Below are positions 20,941 through 62,200 of a stretch of 64,000 bases of DNA, piece after piece. The stretch lies in NCBI RefSeq assembly GCF_000003815.2, contig NC_049992.1:17534489-17598488 (forward strand), in the 5' to 3' direction. The first letter of the stretch is position 1. Each line of letters begins with the position of its first letter. The position numbers and the translations under genes are program-made. The stretch is from Branchiostoma floridae (lineage: Eukaryota > Chordata > Leptocardii > Amphioxiformes > Branchiostomatidae). The notes beneath the pieces are model-generated. The model was not told the origin of the DNA, searched no databases, and saw only the letters and a list, made by a program, of their open reading frames with translations.

Positions 20941-21070
20941 ATGCACCGTAACATCGTCATGGTAATTGCACCGTTACTAGTGCTACTGCAGCTGACCACT
21001 GCCACCAAGGTTGAGGAGTGTCAGTTTGGAGGAATACCCGGAGAACAAAGACCCTGTAAAGTTATGATAG
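20941..21070 (+). CDS. Exon 1: start codon and signal peptide
   Basis: Residues 1-43 plus one base. ATG is followed by a hydrophobic core ([11 protein letters not shown]) and a likely cleavage after TTA (residue 21). The mature start holds a Cys pair, C27 and C39, before the first strand of the amino-terminal domain. The donor is ATAG then GTGAGT. A pyrimidine tract and AG directly precede the ATG, so a noncoding exon may be spliced to it. The frame is also open upstream from 20773, but through a CA repeat, which makes the upstream Met unlikely. Confidence 0.85.
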
Positions 21071-24000
21071 GTGAGTAAAAACCTTCTGAACTTGTAATTG
21101 CCATATGTGTTATTAGAAGTCATTATTTTTAGCTGATCTGTAATTGCGAACACGCACAAAAAAATAGGAATTTTGAAAATCTGATCTTTTCCCTGCAAGG
21201 AATGGGCAGTCCACTGTTTTTGAAAATTAGCAAAAAAAATCTGCCCCCCCCCCTCCCCTCCTCACACATACATACCGACTCCTGTGGAATCATCATTTTA
21301 ATTCGGTTGATTTTTAATCAGAAATGAAAGTATAGATTTGTATTTGTAATATATTTATCCAAAAGATTACAGTACGTGAAACTCGATTGTGGGCTATATA
21401 AGGCCACGCTTTTGGTCTATTGCATATTGCTACAATCAGTTTGTGTCAGATAAGACAAAGGGTCATTTGGATATATTTTTCGCAAGCTTATTGTGTAATT
21501 TAGTATATAATGCATTTATCATTGTTACTTGTGCCATATTATGCGATACAACAAATCACAGCAAACATATCCTTCTTATCTATAGAATAACATCGACGCA
21601 TGAAATGTTTATATTTTCAAAAAAGAAAAGAAAAAATTGGAATGTTGGAATAGTCTTGGCATTAAAGTTAAGTGACTCCCACGCTCTGAAACTCTCATCA
21701 TTTCATATTTGACTGTCAAGAACCATGGTTTTGCGTCAAGGGAGTACGAAGGTGAATCGTTCGAGTGCCGGGTTTGCTTTAAATCGATATGGCTACCTTA
21801 ACGCCATACATATGATGAGTTATATAAAATGTAACATTGATAAAAAGACGTTGTATTTTTTGGTCCGGTAAGGACATAAGGCAAGTTTAAATACTGTAAA
21901 TCCATTTAATTTCGCAAGGATTTGATTTCGCGGCAGAAGGAAAATGAAGTATTCGAGGTGGTTTTGACTTCGCGTTAGTGCCATCCCGCGAATGTATTTA
22001 CAGTACTGTACTGTAGTCGCATACCTTTTATTAATATTCGCGGTGGTTTTAAGTTCACGGTTCAGCGGCCAACGCGAAAACCGCGATAAAACCACCGCGA
22101 AAGTTTCTGCATTTACATTTATGAGGTTAATGTAGACACGTTTGTTTTCTTCCTTTAAATAAAGACATTAATAAAGTTTTCAACTAATTACAAAGTTTGA
22201 TCAATATATGTTAGATCGGCACCGTTATCAGATATAGGGCAGGTTTAATTACTGAATATGCTTATTGCAAGTTTATGCCGAGGGCTAACGTATTTTTAAG
22301 GCCCCCTCTCACTTGACGTGCGGCACGCTTGCGGCATTGCTGCGTTCGTTCACTGCGGCACTGCTGTGTTAATTTCGCCGATTTTGTCTTGCACTCACAC
22401 TGACGTGCGGCACTGTTGCGTTTCTAAACTAAATGAACATGTTATTGGCAATTGCAGCGTTGTCAATTTATGAAAAATCACTGTAAAATGATGAGAATGC
22501 CCCAAAATGAGATTTATAATGAAAAGATTTCCCTTATGATAATGAATTATATGATACATATGCTATAAATAACCTTGAACGACTTTTACTGTAAAGGAAA
22601 TGACCCAAATGAACGGACACGAACCATATACCAGATTTGAATCGATGTGTACGTTTTGCACCATGTAACGTTATGTGTAATTATGTATGTTAATATGTTT
22701 ATTCACCAATTTTGCAAATTTTTAAAATGAAAATGCTTGATATTTCATACTTATTTTGTATGACGCGGAGTATTTTCATTGTCGGCGGATGGCTTACCAG
22801 CCTATTGATGTCTAAGTCTATCATATTTGTAAAAAGTGAGAAAAATATGGCCCATCGGTTTGAATGACTGGAATATTGTATTTTATCGGCGGCAGGCTAC
22901 CAGCAATGATTAGCTTGTAACGTTATAACGCAAACGCAAACTCGTTATCATCCAACATAAATAAATTATTTTTGAACGTTGTACGATAATCTTTTTCTCT
23001 ACATCCGTAGGTTAATCGATAAACCAGTTACTTATTTTTTGTTTTCAAGTATAAAATACTGACCTACTTCCAATTAAATAAATCAAAAGATGTATTTTTA
23101 AGTTAACTCTGAATACGGATACTAGGTAAGTTTTGTGGAATTCGCAGTGTTTTTACTGGATCGAAAACCACTGTAAAATTATAGAAATGCATCTAAAATA
23201 GTTTTTCGGTGATAAAAGGATGTTTACTTTTGATTCTTGGTGTAAAATAGGCAAAATATATCCTTGATACTGTTTGGGGCATGGTGGCGGCACTGTTGCG
23301 GCACCGTTGCGGCACTGTTGCGGCACTGTTGCGGCATCTTGCCACTTGCGTTATTTTTAAACTTTTTAAAAAACGTCGCGCTTGCTTGCGGCACTTCTAG
23401 GTTTGCTTGCGGCACCTCTAGGTTTGCTTGCGGCACCTCTAGGTTCCGTGGCGGTACATCTGCGTTTTCGAACGCAGCAATGCCGCAAGCGTGCCGCACG
23501 TCAAGTGAGAGGGGGCCTTAAGGAAAGTACAGAGGTGCTAAGAAATACATTCTATGACTATGTTGTGCTACTTATGGCAGCTTCACCTAGTATGATTCAT
23601 TGAATGCATTTTACCAATACCTTTTCACCAAATCTGTTTTATATTAAAATAAATACAATATTTTTTCATACTTTGAAGCACCATAAATCTCTGTATGTCG
23701 CTCAACTGCTGTGGGGTATTGTAGTAGCAAAACTTAAGTAGGCACGACGTTTGAATGAAAGCATGTCTTTACGTAGGCTTTTAGCGTGCTTAAAGATCAG
23801 ATTTTGAGTATTGTCTACCGGTGCGTAGTTCCGTTGAGCGTATATTTACCATATCTACTGTAGACAGGTTAACCCTGTTACATGCCCTTTAGTTATTTCC
23901 TAAGCCATATAGAATATCTTATCATGAGGCCTTTGATCCCATTGATATTGGCTGGCTCGGATTATAATGTATGATATACATATATATAATTTGAGCATTC

Positions 24001-27000: not shown

Positions 27001-30000
27001 CTTTGTTCTACAATTAACTTGTGCGATAGGCTGAAGTAATTCTACGTATATGTATAATTTAAAGTGGAAACTAATGCTGACTTCAAATTGGCCTCAACCA
27101 ACGTATTGGTGGAATGTGTCATAAGAAATTCACAATTGTTTAATACATAAGTTTTATGTTGACTTTTTTTACATTTCCTCAAAAATACATCCTGACTTCA
27201 GCTTGAAACCGATTAAGCAGTAGAACCTTTTTGCACGGTTACTTTTACAAATAGCATTTGCCATTTTCCACATGATTTCATTTTAACTTCCTACTCGTAT
27301 GCCACGAATACCACAACATCCCACCAGCATAAGCTAGCCGCTTTTAAGTCAGGTTTAGTAGTTAAACAATGACTTGTATTTTACACTGTTTGAATCTTTC
27401 TATGTTACCTGCAATTAGCCCACGGGCAAGAATTTGCAATAAAACTTGTTATGTTATTACGTAGGCCTTCGGAAAAAATGAGTTCCCGGCTACCCTACTA
27501 ACCCTTAAAACGCATGTCGACCATAGCTAATTTTTTAGTCCGCCGCTGACAAATAATATAAGATTCTGAAAATGAAATTTTGAGTCATAAAACTAAAAAC
27601 TTCCTGTATTTGACTGACAAATGCTTCGAACATTAGATCGTTAACATTATAGTTATTTTCGTTTATTGCGATAATTGTGTTTGTAAAATACATTCCTTTA
27701 TCATTTATAATGTGGTGTTGAAACTACCGATGTTCTGATACATTTGATTTTCACATTGCAAAACTGTAATTGTTGGCTACCTTTTCAGTACTGTATTCGG
27801 AAACCCTCGGCCGTTTTTATAGATTTGAACAGGAACATTTTCTATACAGTTATTTACAGCCATTTTACATGGAGACATTTTTCATCCCTCTCACTATTTG
27901 TATCCTTAGAAATGAAGCCAGTGGACTTTGACACAGGGCAGCCTAAAGGAAAGTGGAAAATATAAATGCCAGTAATATCTGTGAGAGTTGGCCATTCTAC
28001 GGGGCATTCAGCTAGCTGATTAGATGTGCAGCAACCTAGAACTGATACAGTAGCCCTGGTTGGTAATATAAAACTTGTCTCTGAGTATATGCCACTTCCT
28101 ATATATACGCTGCTCCAGTGAGGAATATATTTGAACAGGGAAGAGATAACTATATCCTCGGTTTTCACGGTACAGTGGTAATTAATTTTGAGAATGAAAG
28201 GTCTGTTCGTCAGAGACGAATGCACGGGATTAAAAGTGTCTTGAACTGCTTTTTACGGAAAACAGGCTGACTGAAAGTATTACCGAATGTATGGGGCCTT
28301 AATCAAGACATCCTCAAACTATTCATGGCGTGAAGCCAATGTCCGGAAAAGAAATATAGCAAGCTAAAGAAGACAGAAAACATGCCGATCCAAACATTAC
28401 TCATTGCCATGTTCTACAGACAAAGGTGAACGGAAATGGATGCGGTCAAAACGTAGACGACAGAGGTGGACACGGGTGAATAGGAATAGATAGGGAGGAA
28501 CAAGGGTGGGTAAGACTATGTGAAACTAGGGTGTGCATCAAGGTTAAGAACTATGAATGGCAAATCACATCAATATACGAGCTTCAACTGCAAAATCACA
28601 TCAGGGCTTCTTCATGCATCTACTCAGTATACGAGGGTTGATCAATAAGGTCTGGTCATAGGTCGTGACCAGACATAATGTACAGTGCACAGAACTCATT
28701 TTTTGAGACACAATCATATATAGGATGGAGTTTCTTATTAATAATCACAAAGTTGCTAGGTATTATGTCCATTACTTTTCAGTCAACGTCCTTTCGAAAA
28801 TTAGTGAGTAGTGAGAAAAAGGCGATCATAGCTGTGTAGGTCAAGATCTACATGGAACAAGAATATATAAATCTACGAAGACTTTTTAAAGTGTTTTATG
28901 AGAAATACCTTCGTATTCTACCATGAATTAAGTGGTTATTTTACTTCCAGCAAATAACGTTTACTCGTACATCTTATTAAGCCCCAACAATCTCTCTCCC
29001 ATCCAACTTTATTGATTTTCAAAAGGGCATTTTGGTAGATATTCATAAATGTTTTTTTCTTTCTTTATAGTATCACAGGTGTTGAATTGTACACACAATA
29101 TCTAGGTGAGACCCAGAATTTATTGATCACCCCTCGTAGCACATCATTTCACTGACAGACCACAAAGCCACACTTAAACGATAAACTATTACATATATCT
29201 ACGTTACTTGGAATGTTTGACGAGATGGGTTGCAAATGTGTACATTTATCACGCCAAATATTGTTGTGAGAGCATCTGGCATATTTATTCCCAGTGGTGG
29301 CATTTGGAAGAGTAAAATATCACTCAGCAGGTAGACCACCATGGGCGTCAAATAGTCGTAAACTCTTGGGATCAAAAACAACCCATTATGATATTAATAA
29401 CGCTGTGTTATTGGTACGTGGTATGGTTGTAAATGGAGCCTAATGTAGACACTATATGGCTGATTTAGTGTGCAATCTGTCGATCAAGGCGTGAGATGGA
29501 CATATCATCATCAAATGATTCATGTAATGGTCGTGGTTATACCCTTTGTTAATGGCCAAAACGGTAACGTGTCTTACCAAATTTAGCTCTGCTCCATTTG
29601 ACGGTTTTAGTTGTATTACGTTATCTTTAATTTGACTTCAATAAAAAATTCCATCTTCCAAAAGTTAAAAAGGGTGTCATTGTAGCCCAACTGGTAACAG
29701 CCTCGCAGTTGGGCTCCTGACTTGCACTAGCTGGTAACTGGCAGTTACCGGTTCTAAGCACGAAATGGCAACTAGGTTGGGGTTGCAACGGTCTTTTAGA
29801 AAGGACATATATACCGTAGGGGTTCCGTATTCGAGGAGCGGTGCTGCTAGTACGTTTGAAGGAAAAGGTCTAGCGACCCCTCCCCGTAAAAGTTACTCTT
29901 GTTTTGAAACAGCAAGGCAACTTGCTGACCTATGTACCATTGGGCACTAGAAGATGAACGACAACCTCACCTCACCGGTCCCATAGCCTCACCGGCCGTA

Positions 30001-33000
30001 GGGGCAGCAATCCCATCAACATAAGTCTTCCATCTTCTTCTTCTTCTGTGAACAACAACAAGAACAACTAAAAGTTGACGAGTTCTTCCTCTACGTTTGT
30101 AATTTTGTTTCCAAGGACTCAGCTAACTGCAGGATGTGAAAGTCAGCTCCAGGAAGATTAGTTTCTGAAAAGTGTGTTTTTGATGACCGTTAACCAGGTC
30201 AATTTACGGGATAATCCGAGATTACACGGGTTAATAGGAGACTCTACGGTCCAAAGTACATCCCGATCGATTGCTTTCCTGTCAATAAATTCTAACAAAC
30301 CGGTAATTCTTTTGGTGTCAACACGCATTGATTCAAGTCACTTCAAAAGAAGCCCTGGCAATGCAACAAGTATTTTATGTATGTCAACCTATAATAGAAG
30401 CAAGATGGATCGATAGAAACGATTTTGTGTCGAGAGTCAGCAACACTGGTCCTTTGTCCATATGATAACTTTGATGTGTTCTTCTGTGTCATGTTTAGGT
30501 GGCCTATTTGGGTCCTCCTCAGCGGATTGGGTGGCGGAGCTTGCGCTAAACATTGCCATAGATATGGTGAACACCAACCCAGAGTTACTCCCCAACGTCA
30601 CCATCAGTGCAGTCCTCAACAGAACACAGCATTACCTAACAAGCTTCAGGAACATACAGAACAGTAAGTACAGAACACAACATTACCTAACAAGCTTCAG
30701 GAACATACAGAACAGTAAGTACAGAACACAGCATTACCTAACAAGCTTCAGGAACATACAGAACAGTAAGTACAGAACACAGCTTTACCTAATAAGCTTC
30801 AGCAACATACAGAACAGTAAGTAAGAACACAGCTTTACCTAACAAGCTTCAGGAACATACAGAACAGTAAGTACAGAACACAGCTTTACCTAATAATCTT
30901 CAGCAACATACAGAACAGTAAGTAAGAACACAGCTTTACCTAACAAACTTCGGGAACATACATAACAGTAAGTACAGAACGTAGCCTTATCTAACAGGCT
31001 TCAGGAACATACAGAACAGTAAGTACAGAACACAGCTTTAACTTACAAGCTTCAAGAACATCCAGAACAGTAAGTACAAAACACAGCATTACTAACAAGC
31101 GTCAAGAAGATACAGAACAGTAAGTACAGAAAGAAATGTTACCTAACAACCTTCAAAGGCGTACAGAATAGTAAATATAGACCACAGCATTGTCCAACAA
31201 CCTCCAATAACCTACAGAACCGTACGGACAGAACGCAGTCATACAGAACAGTAATTTAAGAATGTTGTATTACCTAACAACCTTCATGGATATACAAAAG
31301 AGTCAATAAGTACTGAACAGTTATCATTAGAACAAAGCATTAACTAACAACTCTAATACCTTACAGAAACGTACAGAACACAGTATCAAATTTTCCTATT
31401 AACGAAATTCAGAAATATAAAGAATAATAAGTCCATAACAAAACATTATATTTTGGAACATACATAATGTATATTATGATACGACAAGGTACTTACAGAA
31501 TGATAAGTAAAGAACACAACACCTAACAATTAATATACAGAACAGCTAAGTGCAGTGAGCAAGATTTACTAACATTTCCTCCTGGAACATAACACAGCAT
31601 TACTCAACATCCTTCAAGATTATGCAACATGTACAGGCTAGATTATGCATCATAGCACGTAAAGGTATGACACCACGGGGCAAAAATCAATACGATAACG
31701 AGAATTATTGAATTCTACCTTCCTACAGCCGACAGCGATATCTGTTACCCTCCTTCCTACACTAACAATTTAGAATATTGACTAACCTTCGCTGTCCCTT
31801 TTTCAATTCCATCAAGCGAATCAAATTACCAAGCATAATATGACAGCTGAATGTAAGTAATATACGACAAAATAAGGTCTTTATTTATATACAGTAAACA
31901 TAATCTTTCCTGACAACGTTTATCAGAAAATCTTCAAATTTTCTTTTCTTTCTTAGCGTTCGTCTGGCCCCAATTAAATGTGAGTTGCCACAGACATATG
32001 AAATTGGCTGATGCCACAAAAATGTGAGATTCGATGTACTCAAATTACTATCATCACACGTGTGAGCAATCAATGAAATCTTCATTCATATACAGTAAAC
32101 ATGATCTACTCTTACAACATCTATCAGTAAATTTACAAATTTTCTCCTATTTCTTAGCGTTCATCTGGCCCCAATTAACTGTGAGTTGCCACAGAAATAT
32201 CAGATTGGCTGATGGATCAATGTACTCAAATCACTATCATCACACGTGTGAGCAATCAATGAAATTTTCATTCATATACAGTAAACATGATCTACTCTTA
32301 CAACATCTATCAGAAAATCTACAAATTTTCACCTCTTTTTTGCGTTCGTCTGGCCCCAATTAACTGTGAGTTCCCACAGAAATAAGAGATTGGCTGATGG
32401 ATCAATGTACTCAAATCACTATCATCACACGTGTGAGCAATCAATGAAATCTTCATTCATATACAGTAAACATGATCTACTCTTACAACATCTATCAGTA
32501 AATCTACAAATTTTCTCCTCTTTCTTAGCGTTTGTCTGGCCCCAATTAAATGTGAGTTGCCAGAGAAATATGAGATTGGCCGATGGTTCGATGTCCTCAA
32601 ATTACTATGATCACACATGTGAGCAACCAATGCATACGGGAAAATGTTCTGAATAATAGCCTTTTGTGACCTTTCTCTAACTGGGAAGATGTTTTTTGCA
32701 TTAGCTTTGTGTTGCGTAAGCGTCTGATAACGTTGACCGCTGGCCCTGGCCACGCATTACCTTAGAAGATTAATGCCAATGCACCTGAACGTGTTTGACC
32801 TTTTAACAAAATGTCACTACATCCTTTCAACTTCCTTCAAGCCTAAAAGTTTTGCGCATTTCATTTAATGTGAATAATCATCTGTATTATATACCATCTG
32901 CTGTAACATCATAAAAAATTACACCGCAGAGTCTCAATTTTTTAAGGATTTGTCCTTGAAATCCTTTGAAATAAAAGTTTTATATGGCACCATAAAAAGA

Positions 33001-36000
33001 TGAAAGGTGATTGGCCCATTGAGAATTCAGTACGAATGATGTATATACATGCTTGCTAATTGGTTGTTGACCCATTTTACTGTGGGGGTTCAAACGCTCG
33101 TATCGCCGCCTATCCATTTGATGTGCATTAAGTTCGGAGGAGACAGACAGTCGAGGTATTTGACACCAGGTTAGACTGTAATATACATAAATGGTGTACT
33201 TAACTCGTTGGGTCCCGGCCCTTGCACCATTATATAACATTTAGGTCCAGTATAAGAAGGACGTTTACAGAAGGTGCATTTTAGGTACATTCTGTCCCGA
33301 ATAAGCTGTTATGGTGTTGTGTTCAATAATGGGAAACTTTAGTGTATAGATAATAATTATAACGTTGCAATCGAATAGTTTACAAGGACGTAATATCTGT
33401 TAGCACAGGAATTATATTTTACCAGGTGAATTCGACTTATTTATCTTTTTATATGATAACAGGTTATTTTGCTATTGAATATTTATTCAAACCAACTCAT
33501 AGTGGAGAAATGTTGTATCACTTATTAATAATTGTATGAATTAGAGAAACATAGATTGTATTCGTTGCTGATTTCCAGCTGTCTTTTTGCTGGATGAACT
33601 AACTAGAAATTTTTAGAAAAATTCTGTATTACTTCCGTGTATGAAGAAATGAAACATTGGTTGTATTCGTTTGTACATTCCAACTTACTTTTGCTGTACG
33701 AACTCTGAAGAAATGTGAAGTCCGCATTATTTGTATACGGTACGAAAACATATACTGTATCTGTTTATACATCCCAACTTAATTTTTGCTGTATAAACTA
33801 CATTCAACTTCAAAATGCTCTTCATCCTTTATTCTATCTTGGCTAAGGCACTTATCGAAATTCTTTTGTAATAGGATAGTAGAAACTTTGTCTTCCTACA
33901 AGATTATGTTCCAATCCCATAGGGCCTTCAAACTGAAACCGAATTAGCAGGAATCAAGCAGAACCAGCCGGAATGAAGTATTTGCAAAATCCGTGCCACA
34001 TTCGGGGCCATTCGGGTGGGAATTCCAAATGGACCTTTTGTCCCCTTCACACGAGAAGGAATGAGCCAAAATGCCGTCGGAATGAAAATTCTTTTCTATT
34101 CCAGGTAAGTCGTATTGTATTCGAAGTGGCTTGCAGTTTCGTTTCTACATCGAAGTCCCAAAGATTTAAGCATGTCAAAAACTTTCTGACCAGCCAAAAT
34201 AACGGGCACAACTCTGGAATGCAGAGAGAATTTCTAGAATACACTACGTAGTCCCAGGATTAGTGAAGAATTTTCACACTCACGGCATTCCGGCTCATTC
34301 TTGCTCTCGTGTGAAGGGGCCTTCAAGCGTGAAAGGAGCAAACGGGCCGTGCCATCAGGCTCTTTAATCATCTGTCACTACAACCGCTGGCGTTGGTGGT
34401 TTATCACTTCGCCACTGGGGCGTGAAGGTAATTAACAGCCCAGCCGGAAGCGACTTCGCACTAATCCGCCTAAATGAAGACCTTCGTCACCGTCCGGTTG
34501 AGAAGCGAATGCCCTTGAGATAAAGCTCTATATTAACTCCTTCCGCTCAACAAGGTGGCAGTTTTATCACTTGTGCCTGTTGAACGAAATGCAGTCATTA
34601 TTTCAACCTTAACATAAGAGAAAGGCAACATCGCGTTTTTGTGGCGAGCAAGCTGTTTCAGAGACGTTGGCCACTTTTACTGGCAACATGCCATCAAAAG
34701 AGATACGGCAATGCCAAGGCTTTTTGTAGAGTGCACTCGCAGTAAGATCGTTTTGAGATCACTTCAAAGAAGCACAAGAGGTAGAATATATATTTTAGAA
34801 CTGCGTAAAGGTCAGGGAATCCGAATATGCTTAGTTAAGAAAAAAATACAGGTCCAACATTGAAGACACTAATTTTTCAGGTCCGGTTTTTCTGGACCGG
34901 TCCAACAAGACAAAACGGTTTTGTACCTTTATATCGTACCGGTAGCCACCCCTAGCCTAGTATCTGTAAAGGGAAAAAAAGTCAATATGCCAATGTATAG
35001 CGTTCCACGCTGGCTCATTCCTACTGTGTATTCAGAGCGCTGATTGTATCAACATTTTCTATCCCTGGCAGTTGCTGGGCAGATTAGTGGGAAGATTGCC
35101 ACAGACCGAATGATGTGCGGATTTGATTAACGCGACGACCCCTGGCGTGCTGCAATCGGGCCGTGTACGACCTTGACTTGCTCCCGGTGCTTGCCAAGCA
35201 TGCTCCTCCTACCAGACAACCAACTATTAGTAGCCTCCACCAGGCCTTCCTTCGGGGATACGGGGATCGTAGAATTCGCCAAAATAATCGGGAAATTGGC
35301 CAGGGGGGTCAGTCCACGCTTTTAAAGGTTCATGTTCCTTCTCCCGCGCGACCTACGAGCATCTCTGGCAGCAAAACTCCAAGTTGGTAAATTAGTTTCC
35401 TTTTGATAGCCAGCGTAGTCAGTTTTTAGTCCACTAGGCTTCCTTCGGAGATACGGGATAGTACAATTCGCCAAAATAATCGGGAAATTTGCCAGGGGAG
35501 TCAGTTCACGCTTCTAAAGGTTCATTTTCCTTCTCCTGCGCGAACGACGAGTGTCTCTGATAGCAAAACTCCCTTGGTAAATTATTCTCCCTATAATAGC
35601 CAGTCAGTCTGTTAGCGACTAACAACCAGTCAAATCTTTCGATAAAAACGGGGAAACCATAGCGTAATGGAAGGAAGACATGTGACAAGATAAGGATACA
35701 GCTACATGCCCAGATACCGTTCTTAAACGGTCGTTTGAGCCATATATCCGTCTTGACGCCAGCTATAACTGGATAACGGCGACGTTTCCTGCAAACACAA
35801 ATAGAGTGTTTTAGCGACCATATCAATAACTGAAGTTTGTTAACTATATCTATTAAACCGAAGAAGGTCATATTTCACGGTTCAGAATAAAAACATACCT
35901 ATATACATACGGGTATTAGACTTACACATAAAACATACCTATAAACATGCGGGCATTAGAATCACACAGAAATATACCGAGATCATAAAATAGCTTTCAT

Positions 36001-39000
36001 GAAGAGTAGAACGTTTGAAAAAAAAATTACCAATACAGTAAAAGCCGCTTAATTGCACGGCATATTTGCTTGTGAATATCGTACAATTATCCGGCTGGTG
36101 CAATGATGCGAAGTTATCTAGCTGGACCGCACCGGTTTGGGATTTTGGGATTCAGTGCAGTTAACAGAAGTTCGCGTTAATCCGTTGTGCAATTATAACT
36201 GGCTTCTGCAGTATACACTTAACCAGGTAGCAATGGACTAGGTATACGAGATGAATAGGGTTACCTGGATTTTGAGACATTTCGAATTTAACCAGAAATG
36301 ACAGGAGAATCATGTTACACGCTCGCATTAACTGATTCTTCCTGGAATCAAGTACATGCCTGAACCGCAGAATCACCTTGTCCATCATTGTAACAGCGCC
36401 AGACGTACCGTCGTCTCTTAAACGACAGGAACAGCTTGCTTGTCAGATGTGGTACTGTATCGCACTCTTTACGTGCCACTATAGTCTGACATTGCGGTAC
36501 GTTCTTAGATTAAGACATCTACACAATGGGAATCTTTGACTTAGTAGGTAAGTTTGCCAAGGCATATTTAGCATTCCATGCACGCTACTTGGAAGAATCC
36601 CAAAACACAAGTTGCGGCCAATCTACAGTTATCTTTTCCTGGAAACTTCTTACTGGCAAACTAATGAGTTTTATACTAAGGGAATACATTTCTTATCACA
36701 TGTAAGCCCTACTTTAATTTCTTCATTGCACGACTCTTAACAAAGGTATCAATGAATCAAAACAACATCTCCATCCACTTGTCTTTTGAGACCAGTCAGG
36801 GTGTGATAATGTAGAAACTGTCAATGCAAACATTGAGACTTTACATTTGTGCACTAGCCGTGTAGTAAGCAAACCAATGTTCATGGCAACATCATAACGG
36901 ACTAGCACCACCGAAAATGAGTGAATTGAGGCTGTGGTTCTGATTAGTTGGCAAATGGTTAACTCCGGTTCAATTCTGGGATGGTACAACCCTGTTGGGG
37001 ATACAGTCGCCTTTTTGAAAGGGGTATAAATTTGGGATTCCGTGTCCCATTAGGTGTCTTGAGGACATTTAAGCGGAATGACTAGCAACCCCTTCAGTTA
37101 TACCCCCATTCCACCAGGACGACGCTCTCGCCGCGCTCTCTCTGCGACCTAAAATTTGACAGGTCGCTCAACGAATTGCATAGACTAGAAACGAATCTTT
37201 TTACACTTTGTGCGTTTTATTGTCTTCTTGGTCACATTTTTACATTTTGTATGATGTACCTAGAATGAAAGTGAAGGTTACACATATCCTATTTCGGTCG
37301 CAATCAGAGAGCAGCAGAATCGCCGTCTAGTAAAAAGGGACCCTTACAAATATACCCTGTTCTAGAAGTGGTAAGGAAATTGTGCGACAGTAGCCACTAG
37401 AAAGTTCCGAACGAAATAATGAACTACTGCCGATCTAGCCTGACTGGGTCTATCTGTTACTGTTCTTCAGCTTGCTATCAGGCAACGCAAGGAATCGTTG
37501 CCGTCATTGGACCAGCGACCACCACATCGGTCAAGGCAGTTCATCCAGTATGCGCAGGACTACAGGTTTGCCATCCTCCTACGCAGGGACTTCCAACGGC
37601 GGAGCCGCCTGTCTGGATGTACCCTGCTTTCTCAACCGTCACCCTTAGTTCCTAACCGCCCTGCTTATAAATATTAATGAGCCTATCCTTATATATGCAA
37701 GACCCCTTTTGAAAACTGAAAGGTCTATTCTCTGGTTGGCTGACAGCTGGTGGTGGTGGTGGGAGGGGGCGTCCACATGAACTAGGATTGACGGTTGAAA
37801 AAGCAGGGTACATGCAGACAGGCGGTTTTGCTGTTGCATGTCCCTGCGTAGGAGGATGCAGGTTTGCAAGATTTTGATAAGGGTATCGTACAAAGCCCAA
37901 AACCATACCTACCTACCCACTATACGTAAAAACTAATCATTATGGCCCATGAGTACTGTTGTTTTGTTTGGCTATTATTTTGTATTTGCTGTTTTCTGTT
38001 AGAATATCTTTATGTAGTTTTATAGTTCATTTCTTGTTTTAACTGTATGCTGCAGGTGTGGGCCTTGTAAAGGATGTATAATCATGTTGCCTACACCTCT
38101 CAGATCTCTTTCTGTGAATCGTAATAAATAAATAAAAAAGATAAATAAATAGAAATATAGATAAAAGAGTACGGGGAACAAGGTTAATAGGCCAAACCTC
38201 CATTTGTTTGTCTCCACATAGATCCCACATATAGCTCCTTGGGCCACGGACCCCACCCTGACAGACAACATCAACCAGTACCCTTACTTGGTCAAGATGA
38301 TGCCCCCTGACAGTATGCAAAGCAAAGCCATCGCAGCCTTTGCGGAAAAGCACGACTGGAACAGATTAGCGTTGTTTACTTCGACAAGCGACTACGGTAA
38401 GCGTTATCTTGTTTTTATCATCGGGATGAAATTTCACACATACACATATTCTGTATCTGTATCTATATAGCCGGTATAACCGCCGTTCGGCGTAACACAC
38501 CAGCTCTGCAGGCACGCGGCGCGGCAGCAGCTGGTTATATTACACCGAACGACTCATTACCCCTAAAATATTGATATATACAGTTGTGTGTGCTATGTAT
38601 GCGACCAACAGAATTCAGCCCCCTCAACTAGCCTTTGGGCCCCAAATGTTGCATTTTTGTAACGTATAAACGTAGGTTCGTACGTTCATTTTGTACAACA
38701 GAAAGAACTTTCGCGACAACATAAGGAGAAATATGTCTAGGTGCTTCATATATAGAATACAAATGGATTTATCTGTTTTCAATATACTACAATCGTCGCG
38801 TACACGAATGCGGCGTAGACACAGGCTTATATACTCGAAACACACAAAAAAAGAAGTCTGGGTCGAATGGACTATTTTAGCCCGCCGCAGGTCCTCCTAA
38901 GCTTCCCCTATTCAAACAATAGTATAAGAAGAATTAAATCGGCTCTAAAACCCATCAATTTGAAAGTTTTGTGACAACAAGCGGATCAGTGCCTCACGCT

Positions 39001-47253: not shown

Positions 47254-50200
47254 ATATGTGTGTGTATAACCGTTATATAAATTACCAAAAGAAGACTGAG
47301 ATTTGCATGGCCAGCACTTTGAAGAAATTGAAACTTTTCCACAAAATTTTCCACGAAATGGACCTGTCCAATGTTACTTACGGAACGTGACATCTGACAG
47401 ACAATCGCGCATGCGTCTTTTTCTGTCTCTGTTCAATGCGCGGTTCGCATATTTACTGCTTCCTTCAGTTTTTTTGGAGGGAAATATGGTTCAAATTCAA
47501 GGATGTTGGCTTTATTCAGCGAAACGTGATGTTCTAGTGATTCTATGCGCATATAAGTACTTATTATAGTGCAGTATAGTGCAGTCTTCTCTCATAATGT
47601 CTTCTCCAAAAAAAGTTTACTGTCATGGCTTCATCCTAAGAAAACTTATATACAGCAACCTGACACAACGTTTTTTTTCCAGCACTCAAACGTCACCGAT
47701 AGAATATTATCTAGCTCAGACGGATCTGCCCAAACTGCCCCTAAAGGTCTTTCTATCTCCCAGAAGTATATTTTACGGATCAAATACGTGCGTTATCTCG
47801 ACAAAACATCACCGTATGTCATTCACTACCGGTAAATTTACAGGGGCCCGCTGGCACTCTATCTCCCGACCTGTCTGCCACTGATGTAATGTGATATGCT
47901 ACAGAATGATAACTACAAAGGGTGGTTGACCGCTGGCGGCCATTTTGAAACGGCTGATGCTCACTTATTGACTCAGTGAGCCAAAAAGCACATTCGACAT
48001 GGAAGTCTGGTACAGAACCTTTTATAAGCTGCTGTTTTTAGAACATAGGGCGTTGTGATAAAAATTCAAGCCTTGCAAATCCATTCGCAAAGGTTCACGT
48101 CAAACTATAAGGAATGGACCGCAACAGTTAATTCCGAAGGCGATTTTTTTGGTCAACTGCCCCTCCCCCCCCCCCACACACACACACAAAATATAGTTTC
48201 ACATTGTCACATTGATATGACTCGTGTTAAAAAGGTAAAATGTATTTAAAAATTTCCACAGGCAACCGGTCTTGAAAAAAAATGTTTTTCTGCATAACCC
48301 TTTTGTGCGTATAATGAACAATGAAATAACCATGAACATCTTAAATTCTAAGTGTCCTAATGAAAACCACTCGTACACATCACTTACAACAATGTACGTG
48401 CACAGCGCTAAAACATCCAAAACATGTTCAAGATAATGTTTTAAAAGTCTTTTAATGGTACTTTTTGGCACGACTTACAATCAACACGGCGCCAGCTGTG
48501 CAATCCACTACACTTACCAGTACAGAAAACCTGTTGGTAAGTATTCAAGTCCCGCCTGAAAATCTGATCACTGTGAAAACAGCTAATATAGCTAACATAG
48601 TGGCAATTTGTAAGCTATGAGAGAAGAACTCGTCTGGAATTCTTACCACTTTCCGATTGATTGTTGCGCAGGTGGGAGAGTGGTCCGAAGAGGAGGGTCT
48701 GACTCTTGATGAGCATGTTGTGTTCATGGGAGGGACGACAAAGGTTCCGGTCGACAGCTCTTACGACCTGAACAACAAAACACTCATGGTCACTACTATA
48801 CTGGTAAGTTAAGTGTTAAGTGTACAATACAGCATTTGCATCGGCGTTGGTGTTCATAAAAGTTAACATTAAAAACAAAAATTAATATCCATATAGTAAG
48901 GTTCTTTTAGCACAACCAGAAAATAACTTACTTCCGACGTTTCGGTGTCTGTCAGACACCATCATCAGGGTGGAATGACGGGAACTACTTCTTGCTGCTA
49001 CTTATAGCCGATGTAGGTGGCGTTGCAGCAGCAAGAATGCCATCCCAGACGTGGCTCAGCTTGTATCCCCCCTCGTCTCTGTTCATGACTGGCACTGATT
49101 TTCTGATCCAAACTGCTTCTTTAATCCATCGAGTTCTTCTGTTTTCCTCTCTGTCAATGACTCTTGCCCCCTCCCAGTCTATTACGCAATTGTTTCTATG
49201 AATATGGTCTGTGACTGCCGATTTGTTCTCTGTTTGTTCTGCTGCCTTCTTCTGAGATCTTGTGTATGCACTGCCTTTGCTAATTTTGTGCCTCCTTTTT
49301 GTGTTCTTCAAGTCTGGTGTTGAAAGTCCTGCCCGTCTCTCCAATGTACACCTTGTCACAACTTTTGCACGGAATCTTGTAGACACAGTCTGTTTTAGAG
49401 GAGTCTTCCAGTCTGTCCTTGGGATGCACCAACAAGTTTCTGAGCGTGGTCTTGGGCTTAACTGCCGTGGCAATGGCATGTTTTCTGAAGATCCTTTCAA
49501 GTGTCTCTGTAATGCCTTTGACATAAGGTATGATGATCATGCCCTTGGACTTCTGTTCTTCTTTCTTCTTTTCTTTCTTGGGTTTGGGTTTGTTGGACTG
49601 ATGTTGCACTCTTTTGAAAGTCCAGTCTGGGTAACCACAGAGTGACAGGGCTTGTTTGATGTGTTTGACCTCTTGTTGTCTGTCTGTTTCCTCTGTGACC
49701 ACTGTTTTGCTCCTGTCCATCAGCGTTCTGATTACTCCTAGTTTCTGGTGGAGCGGATGATGGGAATTGAAATCCAGATACTGGTCTGTGTGGGTCTTTT
49801 TTCTGTAGACCAAAAGTTTCACCGTGCCGTCTTCTCTCCTCACTAGTAAGGTGTCCAGAAAGGGTAGAGTGCCCTGATCTTCTTCCTCATGGGTGAACTT
49901 GATACTACCCGTGGGGTCTATGGAGTTTAAGTGGTCGGTAAGTTCATGTTGTGTCCCCTGTCTNNNNNNNNNNNNNNNNNNNNNNNNNNNNNNNNNNNNN
50001 NNNNNNNNNNNNNNNNNNNNNNNNNNNNNNNNNNNNNNNNNNNNNNNNNNNNNNNNNNNNNNNNNNNNNNNNNNNNNNNNNNNNNNNNNNNNNNNNNNNN
50101 NNNNNNNNNNNNNNNNNNNNNNNNNNNNNNNTCTAAAACTGAAATAAGTTGTGGTGACTATGAAAGTTAACAACTCCATGATGTCCTCCACTTGGAGCTT

Positions 50201-53200: not shown

Positions 53201-56200
53201 TTCAATCTTTTATATTTCAAATTACTAAGTATGAATATATGTATTGTCTCATTATCACAATTATCGCTCTGGGTAGATAGATATGTAGTGAGGACATAAT
53301 AGAAGTACGTTGAATATTTCTCTACTTGTTCTGTTGCTACATGTAGTCATTAGTCTTTTTCTTTCTTCATTATTTCCACAGGAGCGACCTTTCATCATGA
53401 TAAGAAGCGACCCCGAACTTAAAGGAAACGACAGGTTTGAAGGCATGTGTATCGATCTCCTCAACGAGCTCCAGAAGTCTCTCAACTTCCAATACAAAAT
53501 CTATCTGGTGCCGGATGGGAAATTTGGTTCGCAAGATCCCATCACGGGCGAGTGGAACGGTCTCGTGCGAGAACTACTTGATGCGGTGAGTAAGATTATA
53601 TGCGGCAATGTATGGGCAGATTTGATGATATACGGTGCCTTCAGGTAACTCAATTCTCCAGATAGATATCATATCATAGGACCACACTACACACTACATT
53701 ACAATGGATCACAAAAAGCAATCATCGTGGTGCTCATAATGTTCCTGAAATGACCAATTACCTTTGATGATACTGATAATCTTCGTGGTAGATGATAACG
53801 GCCTTCGTATTTCCATTTTTCAAACAGTCGATTCTAAGCTTTAAAAATGTCCTAAAAAACTCAATATGTACCTATAATTTAATCTCCAAGCAAATCCTGC
53901 AATGGCATAAGATAGTACCAAACTGGCCAAGGAGTGTAACCATCCCGAAGTTGTCCATTTGCCTCGTAGCGAAACATACTCCCAAGCCGGCTTGATTCAC
54001 TCCTCTGCCAGCTTTTGATACTATCTTATGCTACCATAGGATCTGCTTGGAGATTACCCATCATTAGCAAAGTTCCAAAATTGACTCTTCAATTCCCAAT
54101 GTCTATTCCCCAGAAAGCTGACCTTGCTGCAGCAACCCTGACCATCAGCTACGAGCGTCTCCAAGTCATATCCTTCACCCAACCCTACCTGGACCTCGGC
54201 ATGTCCATACTGATGAGAAGTCAGGACCCCAAGAAGAATCTCTTCGCCTTTCTGGACCCTTTTAGCCCAGACCTGTGGATAGCCTTTGTATTGTCAATGA
54301 TCGTTGTGTCCTTTGGGGTCTGGTTTTGCAGGTATGCATACTTTTTAAAAACCTATGTATAAAACTTCTGACAACTTGGTGCCACAATCAACTCTGCCTA
54401 ACATTATTTTACTGAATGCTACAAGACAAACAATTGAAATTATCAAAATCACGAAGAAAACAAACTCCTAACAACTTGCAACGTACGCCAACTAGCAATT
54501 ACTCAAACAACTGGATAGGATTCTGGAAACGGTCAGACGTTTCAGACGTTTCGTCAATGAATAGTTGCTATTTGGCACATCTAATTACCTGGGTGTGTAC
54601 CTTCATCTATATAAGTTTTAACATAACTAAGTCAGCGAAAATTATATTAGTAACAGAAGCCATCATGTTGGTAAACATAAATACAACAGGAGTTACGTGA
54701 ACAAATCCAGCACGATCGAAGAAAACAAATCAAAATCATAATCCTTAATCATGTCCTTCACCTGTATATGTCAATGACATGAGGTTCATTCATTGCAATG
54801 CTAGACCGGGTGTTATAACATATAGCCGTGTTAAGGTTTTATGACTAACGTCAGTTTTAGAGCTGTGTACACAAAGGACTAAAGATAACTTACAGCATGT
54901 CAAACAGTAGGTTTCATGGGGCCATGTAAAACTACTCATGTGGCAGTGAAGGAGAACGTGCCTTTTGCAAGCTTTCAGAAATGCCTTTTGGCCAGACATT
55001 GATGGATTTCGCAATTACACAGGGATCTTCTTCTTTATCAGGCGGTCGGCATGTCTTAAATATTTAGGTCGTTTCAGCGATTCCATAGGCATCATCGTAT
55101 TTAACCTCGCAGTACAGTGCCATGCATGCGTGCTCATTAAACGACATCCGAGTCGGATGAAAACTGTCTCATTATCACCGCACGAAATCTGATCTTGACT
55201 TAAAGCATTTGTAAAGCATACATAAAAGCTTGATTTTGTTAAAGACGCATATTTACGCATCCTTTAAGAAATTATTAAAGATTGGATTTTGTGCAGTGTA
55301 CAGTCATTATGAACAAAAACAGTGTTTAATCATTCTCAATAGGATACGTAATGAATACGCAAATCATACATTGATGGAAAAACGCAATCTTTACGCATTA
55401 GATATCGCACAGTGTCTGTGTGTCATTGAATGTGAGTCAATGAAAGATTTTTAAAGATAAGTCTTTACGGTGTTCTACAGCACTTTCAGTCCCTACGGAC
55501 ATTACGGCGCGTATGCTCAAAGGACCGACCCACAGGATACGTCCCAGGAGGAACTGAGTAACAACCTCAATCTGTGGAACTCCTTTTGGTTCGCCTTCTC
55601 CTCCTGGATGCAACAGGTTAGTTACCCTTTGACAAAGATTTAAACACATACACACAACTAAAGTTCAATTAGCTTGGGGAAATTTCGAGACGAGCTCTGT
55701 CTCTTTGTCAACCTGGAGGTCTCATCTTGGAGTTTCTTTCTTACGTGACGTTTGATGGACATCGTCCCGTGGCAAGACACAGTTATACACAGGTCTCAGA
55801 TAGTGGCGCCCCCTGTCCCTGTTCAAAGTGCTCTTCTGTCGACGGATCTGAATGGCCTCTCGCACACCCCCGCAAACCAGTCCGGATCCTGATCAGGAAC
55901 TTACGTTAGTTATTCTTAGTAGAAGGCATAGTGCTTTTGGTTTTTGTTTGGGTTGGTGCGTGTTTAGGTTAATGTCTGTGAATGTAGTAAAACTCATAAA
56001 GGACTTGGCGAATTTTGCTAATATTTAGCATGATTATTGTAACTTCTACATGAGAGCTTAAAATGATGAGATGTGGGGCTCCATGCGGCTTGTTACGGTA
56101 CTGTAGCGGAACCTCGCTGGAAAGATGGTATTGTCATCAATGTAAAAACATTGGGTTGACGATAATGATATTAAGGGTTTGGGTGGGTTGTATCTTGTAT

Positions 56201-59200
56201 CTTGTACAACTGCTGTGTCTATTCAAAACTACGTAAATGTGATCTATATGCCGTGAGTATTGTCTCGCTATCATTTGCAAAATTTTCAATTTTTTCAAAT
56301 CTACCAAATGTCAGTAAACAGAGGCTTAGAAAAAGCAAGATAATTGACATGATTAGCCGTTACTTGAACTTAGCAACTACATGAAAACACGAATGGATAA
56401 TATTGTGCAAAAATTCTCTGTTTGAACCAGTTTTAAATTATTTTGTGGTTGGCAATATATATTTGCATTCATGTGGTTGATGCTGTAAACCTCTTGTAAT
56501 GAAAACCCGAGTCAATTAGTTTATTGTCTTCAAGATTACTTCCAAAACACAGCTAGCAATGAAATGCAATTTAAAACTGAATGTATTGAATCGATTGTCG
56601 GTGTAATAACTGGTGTATCAATGATATACTTTAAGCAAAACAATACTTTGACCAAATATGAAAATAATTGTGATAAAAAATAATGCCAGTCTAAATAAAC
56701 CTATCCTTTGATGTACTTGCAGCCTACAAATCCCATTTTCCGGTGAAGGCGGACCATTTTCGAGAAGCTTTTATGTCCTATCTCAACATCGTGTACACGT
56801 CAGCGGAAATCGCGTTAGATAACTGCTTGTAAATCCACCTCCTGCTGAAAAGTACAAGGTCAGCATGAGCAATTTTGACCATTATAAACGTTCCTCCGAT
56901 CTTGTGGTCTATCAGGGTCAATCCAGGTCCATACCCGATCTTATCCCGGTGGTTACGTACCAATTGGAAGGGCCTGCGGTTTTATCCAACGGCTCACGCT
57001 GGGGCTGTATAGTAGTTATCTACCATCCATTTACCTTACAGGTTGTACTTGTTATACACATGTAGGAGTCCGGTGCAATGGCCAAGTGAGTAGAGTATTT
57101 GCCCTGCATTTGATTGGTCGTACGGGGGTTCTAACATCGGCCAAGTCATACCAAAGACTTTCAAACTGCTCTGTCTGTAAAAAAACGGGTCTTAGTGGTA
57201 AGTGTGCAGATGTTGACACACCGGCGCACCAAATCCGTAGGTGTTTTTTGCACCTTTAGACAGATTAGTCGTGAGACTCGGCGGGCGTCACTCCACCGTC
57301 ATGGAGGCAGGGGCATGGCGAGTATCGAACTCAGAACGCTCTAGCCGTTGCTCCACACAGACACCCCTTTATCTGCTAGCATTCAACATTTGGGAAAACT
57401 AACGCTAAAGAAGTTGAACACACATCTTTACAAATAGACAAGCACTCTTGTTGTAGTGATTGCACTCAGTTGTCCGCCTAGTAAACAAGTGGTCACCTGT
57501 TCAAACTGTCGTCGGTGTGTCACTGAATACTCGGTTCCACATCCTAGCATTTCATAACCTTTTGGGGATGACCCGAATCAAAGGTGTACCCAAGGATACA
57601 GCTCAGTTGCAAAAATAAAAATATAATTTTGATAAATGGAAAAATAAATATTGAAAAATATTCCACCTGTGCCAACTTTCCTGACCTGATAAATTTCATG
57701 ATGAAGTCAATCTTTTCATTCATTCACAGGTTTGTATAAGTTTTCTTTTTCTAAAGTGTGCCATGCATACAATCGAATCCACCTGTCCTCAGTGAAAGAA
57801 AATACATGAAGTAAATCTCTAAAATGAGGAGCAAAGTCTTATCTTTGCTACTTTGTATCCAAAGTTGCACTTTCTATTACCATAAACCTTTTGTAACAGT
57901 GCTTTTGTTTATTCACCACACGCAAGCACGTTATTGGTCATTGTCGGTAAGGCAGGAAACGTAAATGTTAAAAGTGCTTGTGTTAAACCAACTGTGCTGA
58001 TTGTCGTCACGCTCTTGAAGAATCTAGTACTGTCAGAACGTGGTGGCTAACTTGGCGCGTTATATCATAGCAGGAAATGAAGTAAATCTTTTTGGTCATC
58101 ATCATTCTAAATGGTAGAGGTTACAATCTTGCTCTTACACTATCATTTCACTAAGGCGGCGACCTCGTTGCAACCTCGCAGAGACCAACCGCGATCGCTA
58201 AACGAATTTCATTTTTAGAAAAGCGAATCTTTTTACCCTTTGTGTGTTATGTTGTATTTTCAGTCGTACTTTTACATTTCACATGACATTTTATTATGAA
58301 GTAAATCCCACTTTTAATTAAGTAAATCCAATAAATTCAACTTATGTCTCAGCAAGGTCGCAGTGAGGTCGCCGTCTAGTGGAATGGGGTTCTTGATAAA
58401 ATTTAGTAACAAAGATTTGTTCGGCTTGTAGAAATACCAAGCTCATAATGCTACAAGCTTCTAAAGGTACAACCGACTGAACCTGCTAAAGGTTTCGTTG
58501 TAGATTCTAAATGTCACCACCGTTCAAGGGTAAGGCGGGGGCGTTTCTGGATAACAGCCCCTCCTTCAATAAACCAGGAATAATACTCGCCATTTGGGAG
58601 GTTATTACGCTGTGAGTCTTTGATGTTTCAGTCAATCGTGGTAGCGACCCCTGCCACGGGGTACGGTGGAATCTTCAGAGTTCTCAGGTCAGGTTATACG
58701 GGTGAAAAATTACCTCGGCTGTGGCAGTAATGGTTTCGTTATTGATTGCTGCAGCCGCTGGCTGCGATTGTGAACACCAGAGTGGACGGGGCGTACTCTT
58801 TTTGAATACTCCTGGACGATCAAGATTAAAATCACCATTTAAAGGAACAACTCCCTCATGTAGGAAACGCAGGAGTATTCTACTAAATCAAACAGAAAAC
58901 AGCACAAAAGATATTCTCCAAGCAGATGTTACGGAGGATAGTGGTGACCGCGAGATTTTTCAATTGAAACATCGCGACCACTACTACAACGTACACGCTA
59001 CTTGTAGAATATCGAGAAGAGTGTCATTATTTTTTTTTGCTTAATCATTCAGATACCCCACTTCAAAACCACGAAATCTATAAGTATGCTCATTGCTGTC
59101 TGTGAATGTACTAATCTATATAACTTTTTCTTATCGGCAGTCTCTAAGTACCTGCCATTATTTGATACCTTTCACTAAAAAGACAAACGTGTCAAGGTAT

Positions 59201-62200
59201 TTCAGTCATTGCATTGGTCAGAACGGTATTGGAAAACTTCAGTTGCGGAATCCCATTGGTCAACTGTGTACACTTTGATGGATGACATCATCAACCTTGC
59301 ATTTTTAATCGATGTGGTCATTGAATGCAATGAAGCAAGTCCCGATAGAAAATATAGACGTCCTTGTAGTTAAACAAGATCCATCGGGTCTTTCTAGAAG
59401 TCAAATTATATATCGTTTTCAACGTAACAGTTTCTTACCATAGGTCGGGGACCTAAAATACATAATTCACACTTTGTGCCCTTAATAATCAGATGGGAAT
59501 TGAGTGGTGGCTGGCCGACCAATTTTTATGCATTGTCTCAGGAGTGTTTTTACAAGAAGTATCACCTCACTTCACCTGACCTAACCTTTAGTATCTCATG
59601 CGTGTACGATAAAATACTCTTGAGCAGTGAACCCTGGTATGAGATGACCCACTGTATGATATCTCAACTAGACAACGTTTATTTATTCATGTAAGAACCT
59701 ATAGGATGGTCTCTGACTTATCAAAATCATAACAAATCATCGGGAAGTGGATTAGTTAACAAAAGCTGAATTGATTAAGCATCCACAATAATGTAACATT
59801 GGCGGATTAAAATCCATGCAACGGTTTACGGTAAATGTTCTGTGTGTAAATGAAGATATTACGAGAATTATTTTACCTCAAGATTGTTTTACTCTAAATC
59901 TAGTGATGTTGTGAGACGACGATGTAGCTTATCAATTCTTTAAATCACTTTGTTATGAATAGATGATAAACCTTTCTTGACAATTTATCCTCTTACAAGT
60001 TACGTACAGATCGTGGTAATGAAGCATATTTGGAGTGTTATGATACTAGTAATATGATATTTTACTACATCTACATTATGACTGATATATACTAGTACAA
60101 GCTCAACTACCAATGTCCTTCCTTAGACTTTACTAAGAACGTTTTAACTTTTTAACTAACTTTCTAAGACAGTGGCAAATGTAAGGACAGATTGGGCTAC
60201 CTAATTTCATAAGCAATATGACCTAATAGATAATATTTGAATACCGAAAACTATAGACCGTTGTCTTGTACATCATGTACCATTGAAGATATTTATCTCA
60301 TTGTAGCATTATTTTAAATAACGAAATTCTTCTTTTTATCTGGGTTCCATCTTTTTCTGTAAAGTCGCATTGTCATGCAGGATATTTCTTGACTTGGTGT
60401 GCCCCCCACGGTTTTTATGTTAGCATGGTAAGCAGAGATCAAAGAACTTTTCAGGCTTCCCAGGGGGTGGGTAGGTATCAACCTCACATGCATTGTCAAA
60501 CTACTTATCTTTTGGATGAAGGAGAATTCTTGTTACACAACCAGTGGGTACTTATATAGCTTACGTTTCGATGTCTCTCAGACACCTTCGTCAGAGCTTC
60601 TAACTGGAGTTCTGCTTCTCACCGCTATATGTAGCCGATGTAGGTGGCACTTTTGTGGTGAGAAAACAGTCCCAAACGTGGCTTAGCTTGTATCCTCCCT
60701 CGTCCCGGTTCATCACTGGGGTTTGGGACTGTTTTTTCACCGCAAAAGCGCCACCTACATCAGCTACATATAACGGTGAGAAGCAGAACTTCAGTTAGAA
60801 GCTCTGACGAAGGTGTCTGAGAGACATCGAAACGTAAGCTATATAAGTACCCACTGGTTGTGTAACAAGAATTCTCCTCCATCCTATATTCTACCAACCT
60901 GATGAAACTATTTTCAGTACTTATCTTTTGTGTAAAACTTTTCTTTCCAGACGGAGGTCGCGCCACGCTCCGTGTCGGGGCGTATTGTAGGAGGGTTGTG
61001 GTGGATGGCGGTCACTGTCATCATTGCCACCTACACGGCTAACCTGGCGGCCTTCCTCACTGTAGCACGCATGAGCAGTGGTAAGTCCCCCATTCTACAA
61101 GACGGCGATCGCAAATACTGTAAATGCATTTAAGTTCGCGGGGATTTAATTTCGCGGTAGCGGGAAAGGGGACTTTTCGCGGTGGTTTTAAGTTCGCGGT
61201 AAAGTGGTCACCGCGAAAACCGCGAACATTAATCCACTGCGAACTTATCTGCATTTACAGTACTTTACGCAGGGGCATCCAGCGAAGAAACCGCCTGTCT
61301 GGATGTACCCTGCTTTCCAAACCGTCACCCTTAGTTCCTGACCACCCTGCTTATAAATATTAATGAGCTTTCCCTTATATATGCGAGACACCTTTTGAAA
61401 AAAAAAGGCCTAATCTCTGATTGGCTGACAGATGGTTTGGGGTGGGGGGGGTGCGTCTACAGGAACTAAGTGACGGTTGAGAAAGCAGAGTACATCCAGG
61501 CAGGCGGTTTCGCTTTTGAATGTCCCTGCGTAGGAGGATACGATCGCAATGCGACCTCACTGTGACCTAAATTGTATCCTTGTATTTCTTGATCTTATAT
61601 TTGGAATATGAGGCAAAAGGTTTGACTGGAAAAAACATAAATTTAAAAAAAAAATGTTTTGTTTTAATCTACGACTTCGAGTAAAATGTTAGGTTAAATG
61701 TTAGGTCGCGGCGATGCGCCTGCCCTTGTACAATAAATGTGTAAGGAAGCTACTCAGAACATAAGTAGCACAAATGATTAAACGTTACTTATCAATATGC
61801 AAGGGATTCGCCATCTTCCTTTTGAGCTCTGAAGGGTAGTCACGTGACTTGAAAATACAAGGTCACACGGGTCGCAAGCAAAAGGTGAGAGTGACGCAAT
61901 ATCATCACAGACTCTCGTTCTCCACAGGTATAAATTCAGTTGAAGATCTGGCCAATCAGAAGAAAATACCATATGGAACGGTGAGCAACAGCCAACCAGA
62001 ATCCTTCTTCGAATTTTCCAAGATCGAACACTTCGCGCGGATGTACGACTTCATGACGTCACGGAACACCTTTGTGGAGACGTCCGAAGAGGGGATCCAA
62101 AGGGTTCACGACCCGAACGACGACTATGCCTTTATTTGGGACTCGGCTGTTCTGGACTATGAGGCCGAGCAGGAGCCGTGTGAGATTATGACAGTAGGAA

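Follow-up and report, generated by a model that had tools for sequence, protein, structure and literature searches.

A probable donor-side mirage in an ionotropic glutamate receptor-like gene of the lancelet Branchiostoma floridae

Amphioxus mirages and related repeats

In the intron-gain model, a tandem duplication copies splice signals. A mirage in an amphioxus Adh gene was reportedly described by Canestro in 2002. Tandem repeats over exon-intron boundaries were termed mirages in the amphioxus Adh3 gene and in the globins BflGb6 and BflGb9 (PMC3087553). According to the same paper, regular splicing seems to be unaffected, as judged from Adh3 data and from RT-PCR of the globins, the BflGb6 mirage has a unit of 150-160 bp that is present in 6 and 3 copies in two haplotypes, and the Adh3 mirage shows somatic instability. 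Mirages in PGBD5 and troponin C are added in PMC3902484; there, an annotated PGBD5 transcript model uses the repeat copies as a 57-residue exon, and the authors favor omitting them. For the Adh3, globin and troponin C mirages, splicing is reported or suggested to be undisturbed (PMC3087553, PMC3902484). Two other systems offer a comparison, namely introns gained through a tandem duplication that spans AGGT (PMC4974935 and others) and intronic minisatellites of C. elegans that are linked to alternative splicing (PMC4039745).

The array described here lies within a 64,000-nucleotide stretch of B. floridae DNA (the window) and, judged from its sequence, is a real and well-preserved mirage, a further case of the class already described in lancelets. 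As in the published examples, a tandem unit spans an exon-intron boundary and splice signals are kept in several units (here, GTAAGT in all ten strong units). The array differs from those examples in its gene (a glutamate receptor), its location on the donor side, its 51-bp unit, the in-frame arrangement of its first four copies and its content of ten strong units plus about ten decayed ones. Unlike intron gain over AGGT, the duplication seen here has created no new intron, its copies being situated within one that was already there. The array is like the C. elegans case in being a minisatellite within an intron; the link to splicing decisions is a feature of the C. elegans repeats, whose description, in its available portion, makes no mention of units derived from a splice junction. 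The initial annotation viewed this array as a rare case, an assessment that is contradicted by the described amphioxus class (PMC3087553, PMC3902484) and by a fitting globin array in the same genome (see below). A literature search on Branchiostoma ionotropic glutamate receptors and tandem repeats returned no title on such an array.

The host gene and anatomy of the array

Homology identifies the host gene as an ionotropic glutamate receptor (AMPA/kainate/delta-like). All features of the gene and its array are on the forward strand. The glutamate-binding domain PF10613 was detected by Pfam in two exons at 53.3-54.4 kb (8.7e-24 and 3.7e-10), and an exon at 61.8-62.4 kb, where Pfam gave no match, corresponds to the second half of the binding domain (GluK2 match, 4.1e-27). 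With a GluK2 query, tblastn placed additional blocks from 30.5 to 62.3 kb, of which six have E <0.001. The ligand-binding and channel exons extend over 53382-62334, with tblastn blocks at 53382-53582, 54105-54311, 55485-55637, 60951-61079 and 61930-62334. In the second ligand-binding exon (61840-62364), D is found where GluK2 has E in AFLMESTTIEF. We take a D at this position to be a feature of glycine- or D-serine-binding subunits, and the receptor may have a ligand other than glutamate.

The 5' part of the gene was delineated as four exons. The coding part of exon 1 (20941-21070), assigned from its open frame, donor (GTGAGT) and phase, likely encodes a signal peptide and ends in phase 1. Exon 2 (30499-30663; 165 bases, both ends in phase 1) encodes the start of the amino-terminal domain; its assignment draws on spliced homology, and its own tblastn match has an E of 0.051. 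Exon 3 (37471-37565), supported by tblastn, spliced homology and the junction reading, has the acceptor TTCTTCAG and joins exon 2, and exon 4 (38222-38396) continues the amino-terminal domain, with its last base placed from a GTAAGC donor (the spliced peptide used 38395). Pfam matches to the exon 2 open frame were weak, unrelated and below the cut-off. A search for exon 2 paralogues in the same genome returned at least seven matches, three of which are the locus itself; the other four score weakly (E 0.02 to 8.8) and did not appear receptor-like on reading.

The array begins within exon 2 and continues into intron 2. Tandem Repeats Finder (TRF) reported a 51-bp period with 12.2 copies at 30619-31238, as well as a period of 101 bp for the same array, and base agreement is 0.70 at a lag of 51 compared with 0.23-0.32 at lags of 45, 47, 49, 52 and 53. 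When the array is cut at its donors, ten strong units of 50 or 51 bp each are obtained (30621-31127), all with GTAAGTA. As the initial annotation had recognized, the unit consists of the final 43 coding bases of exon 2 followed by the donor, GTAAGTA(C/A). Unit 1 (30621-30671) comprises the 43 coding bases (30621-30663) and the first donor, GTAAGTAC (30664-30671), from which the kainate-receptor-like product is obtained. Units 1 and 3 are the same in sequence and unit 2 is one base away from both; the first units are near-identical and in frame, again as annotated. The ten GTAAGT donors are at 30664, 30715, 30766, 30817, 30867, 30918, 30968, 31019, 31070 and 31120, in steps of 51 or 50. Units 2-4 (30672-30824) contain the in-frame donors 30715, 30766 and 30817 and the TAA that closes the frame (30822-30824), and units 5-10 (30825-31127) have intact donors, any use of which meets this stop.

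Decayed units without GTRAGT follow at 31128-31635. A profile search of the region gave 20 stretches, of which ten are strong and the remaining ten are weak, with weak scores falling from 18.7 to -0.9; three of the weak stretches have E >0.1 and some score too low to count alone. The last weak stretch ends at 31625 (envelope 31635). The start at 30621 given in the initial annotation is thus retained, and its 3' end at 31540 is extended to about 31635. Its statement that the later units decay while many keep GTAAGT holds for the ten strong units, whereas a motif scan of the decayed part (31128-31640) found neither GTAAGT nor GTGAGT. The strong units have E values of 3.1e-13 to 1.9e-18 over the window with a profile made from those same units, and the only profile match elsewhere in the window has an E of 0.66. 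A chance origin of the array is excluded. The exon end and its splice signal have been copied at least 10, perhaps 20, times into the following intron. Rfam gave nothing at gathering scores over 29400-33600.

Tandem arrays are prone to collapse or expansion during assembly, and the authors of the globin study describe a draft version of one mirage as apparently misassembled (PMC3087553). An assembly artefact is nevertheless very improbable as the source of the whole array, since the grading of the units, their variation between 50 and 51 bp and the presence of decayed copies are unlike a duplication error and a DNA search of the same genome placed the array at this locus only (31240-31432 and 31487-31555 were also matched). 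The precise number of copies could still be wrong, units 1 and 3 being identical.

Donor choice and the direction of spread

Donor 1 marks the end of a genuine coding exon. Exons 1-4 join in frame, as read from the sequence at the junctions, and their spliced product has a kainate-type amino-terminal domain, with phmmer values against PDB receptors of 1.8e-13 for GluK1 and 2.5e-13 for GluK2. With donor 1 joined to exon 3 at 37471, the peptide aligns with GluK2 with one gap residue; the gap lies nine positions ahead of the junction, and there the lancelet peptide has one residue more than GluK2, in the pairwise alignment and likewise in phmmer. The alignment of this product with kainate receptors continues across the junction, which makes a spread of the repeat from exon to intron the most likely course. 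On balance, the repeated bases are most likely ancestral coding sequence from which the array grew into the intron, in agreement with the original proposal of an array seeded by an exon-intron junction. The reverse direction, in which a pre-existing intronic minisatellite was recruited and exon 2 was extended into the repeat, would account for the 43 exonic bases representing one array unit, but it is highly unlikely: the repeated coding bases occupy GluK2-equivalent residues and the register is kept into exon 3, a protein lacking these bases would fall short of kainate receptors at this point, and the decay runs away from the exon.

With one further repeat inserted (+17 residues), the GluK2 match drops to 41.2 bits (E 1.5e-9), compared with 53.7 for the plain form, and the BLOSUM alignment score to GluK2 declines from 155 to 140, 124 and 110 for the +0, +17, +34 and +51 forms. 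The best match of the +17 form is metabotropic receptor 7, at 42.1 bits compared with 39.8 for the plain form; this match was given less weight since metabotropic receptors are more distant relatives of the ionotropic gene. Most likely, splicing from donor 1, which we infer to be the donor in use, removes the array.

The coding consequences of the other donors are mixed. Donors 2-4 leave the frame open and would add 17, 34 or 51 residues, as predicted in the initial annotation, whereas every form from donors 5-10 is stopped by the TAA at 30822-30824; three of the nine extra donors are therefore open and six lead to a stop. The U1 duplex energy of all ten donors is -7.0 or -7.2, which gives donor 1 no advantage of its own. 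With such near-equal U1 pairing, donor choice would have to come from context, for example exon definition. The suggested array of competing donors is accordingly found in the form of ten intact, nearly equivalent sites, but with a frame that closes after the fourth.

These donors had been proposed to form a length-variation switch, in which donors 1-4 compete to place 0, 17, 34 or 51 extra residues in the amino-terminal domain, with a copy number that varies among alleles. Although four near-equal donors are present, 51 is divisible by 3, and units 1-4 are free of stops up to donor 4, the insertion would fall where kainate receptors align without one, the +17 form is poorer on kainate receptors, and a stop is reached from six of the nine extra donors. 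The donor motif is invariant in all ten units, and the +17 form is slightly better on metabotropic receptor 7. Other mirages display haplotype length variation and somatic instability (PMC3087553), but the published cases are reported or suggested to leave splicing undisturbed. No direct support was obtained for a length switch, and a change of the protein by the array is regarded as unlikely.

GTAAGT shows no differences in the ten strong units, compared with 31 differences from the consensus elsewhere in the unit. A test on 12 columns, chosen post hoc, gave a p of 0.011, and the longest invariant run has a p of 0.055. This invariance could be a hint of selection on the donors, bearing in mind that the test was picked after the data had been seen. 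A related possibility is that the first four donors see low-level or tissue-specific use, giving 0-3 extra 17-residue repeats, and that selection holds the copy donors while the rest of each unit drifts; we judge it slightly less likely still than the length switch.

Growth of the array and neighboring repeats

Identity to unit 1 decreases with distance from the exon, with values of.98, 1.00,.92,.96,.90,.90,.90,.90 and.90 for units 2-10 (Spearman correlation with unit index -0.88, permutation 0.0018, n=9). Over all 20 stretches, the correlation of profile score with position is -0.92, for a profile derived from the first ten. The sole supported fork in the unit tree joins units 4 and 6 (97/97, bootstrap unsettled) and the other forks are open; together with the 101-bp TRF period, this grouping suggests the duplication of a two-unit block within the array. 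Unit 10 is weakly placed with units 1-3, a position not expected from a strict exon-to-intron conveyor, and the order of copying is therefore tentative.

We favor, with a probability of about 0.8, a donor-side mirage, that is, a minisatellite with the junction itself as its unit, whose copies are tolerated and decay intron-ward. A tandem duplication covering the exon 2 end together with its donor would leave a complete donor beside the exon body, so that the extra copies would be intronic and would be removed when donor 1 is used. As the copies would be removed with the intron, such duplications would be tolerated, and the copies would presumably be neutral. Unit 1 would be held by purifying selection, new copies would form near it, presumably via slippage or unequal exchange, and older copies would be pushed into the intron and decay there.

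The same genome contains a second junction array. Among nine globin loci returned, one has a 158-bp repeat of 4.2 copies over an exon acceptor (L032 954-1601, G000:C18), which fits the published BflGb6 mirage. This array is the mirror image of the receptor array, on the acceptor side rather than the donor side, and its copies match the exon copy at identities of.992,.924 and.826 in order of increasing distance when end gaps are excluded (.993,.906 and.784 in another count, in which end gaps are included). In both arrays, the two from which this exon-anchored polarity is known, copies seem to originate next to the exon and to degrade with distance from it. Donor-bearing arrays, with GTRAGT in the unit, are not enriched in a 264 kb sample composed of the window and 20 stretches of 10 kb from the same contig (4 of 50 arrays compared with 3.8 in shuffles); two of these four are in receptor intron 2.

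The receptor array thus provides what appears to be a clear donor-side mirage in a glutamate-receptor gene, with enough units for some of the growth order to be read. If exon-anchored decay is general, mirages would document successive duplications at splice sites, and would offer a natural experiment on the selection of one donor from ten that pair almost equally with U1.

Several other repeats were observed in the gene. A second array in intron 2 (186 bp, 3.2 copies, 32034-32632 by TRF) has a related stretch just upstream, the whole region being 31840-32632. By eye, its copies contain TTCTTAG in three of four cases and GTGAGTT about 23 bases further on in four of four, resembling a repeated tiny pseudo-exon. 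Between 48985 and 51700, two inverted, partly matching open-frame copies surround a run of N (49964-50131), with a weak GIY-YIG match (0.0056) below the cut-off; from its resemblance, we take this pair to be perhaps a Penelope-like retroelement. Two short arrays are located between exons 1 and 2, at 23287-23336 (11 bp, 4.5 copies by TRF) and 23382-23445 (21 bp, 3.0 copies), and GCGGCAC is present in the units of both.
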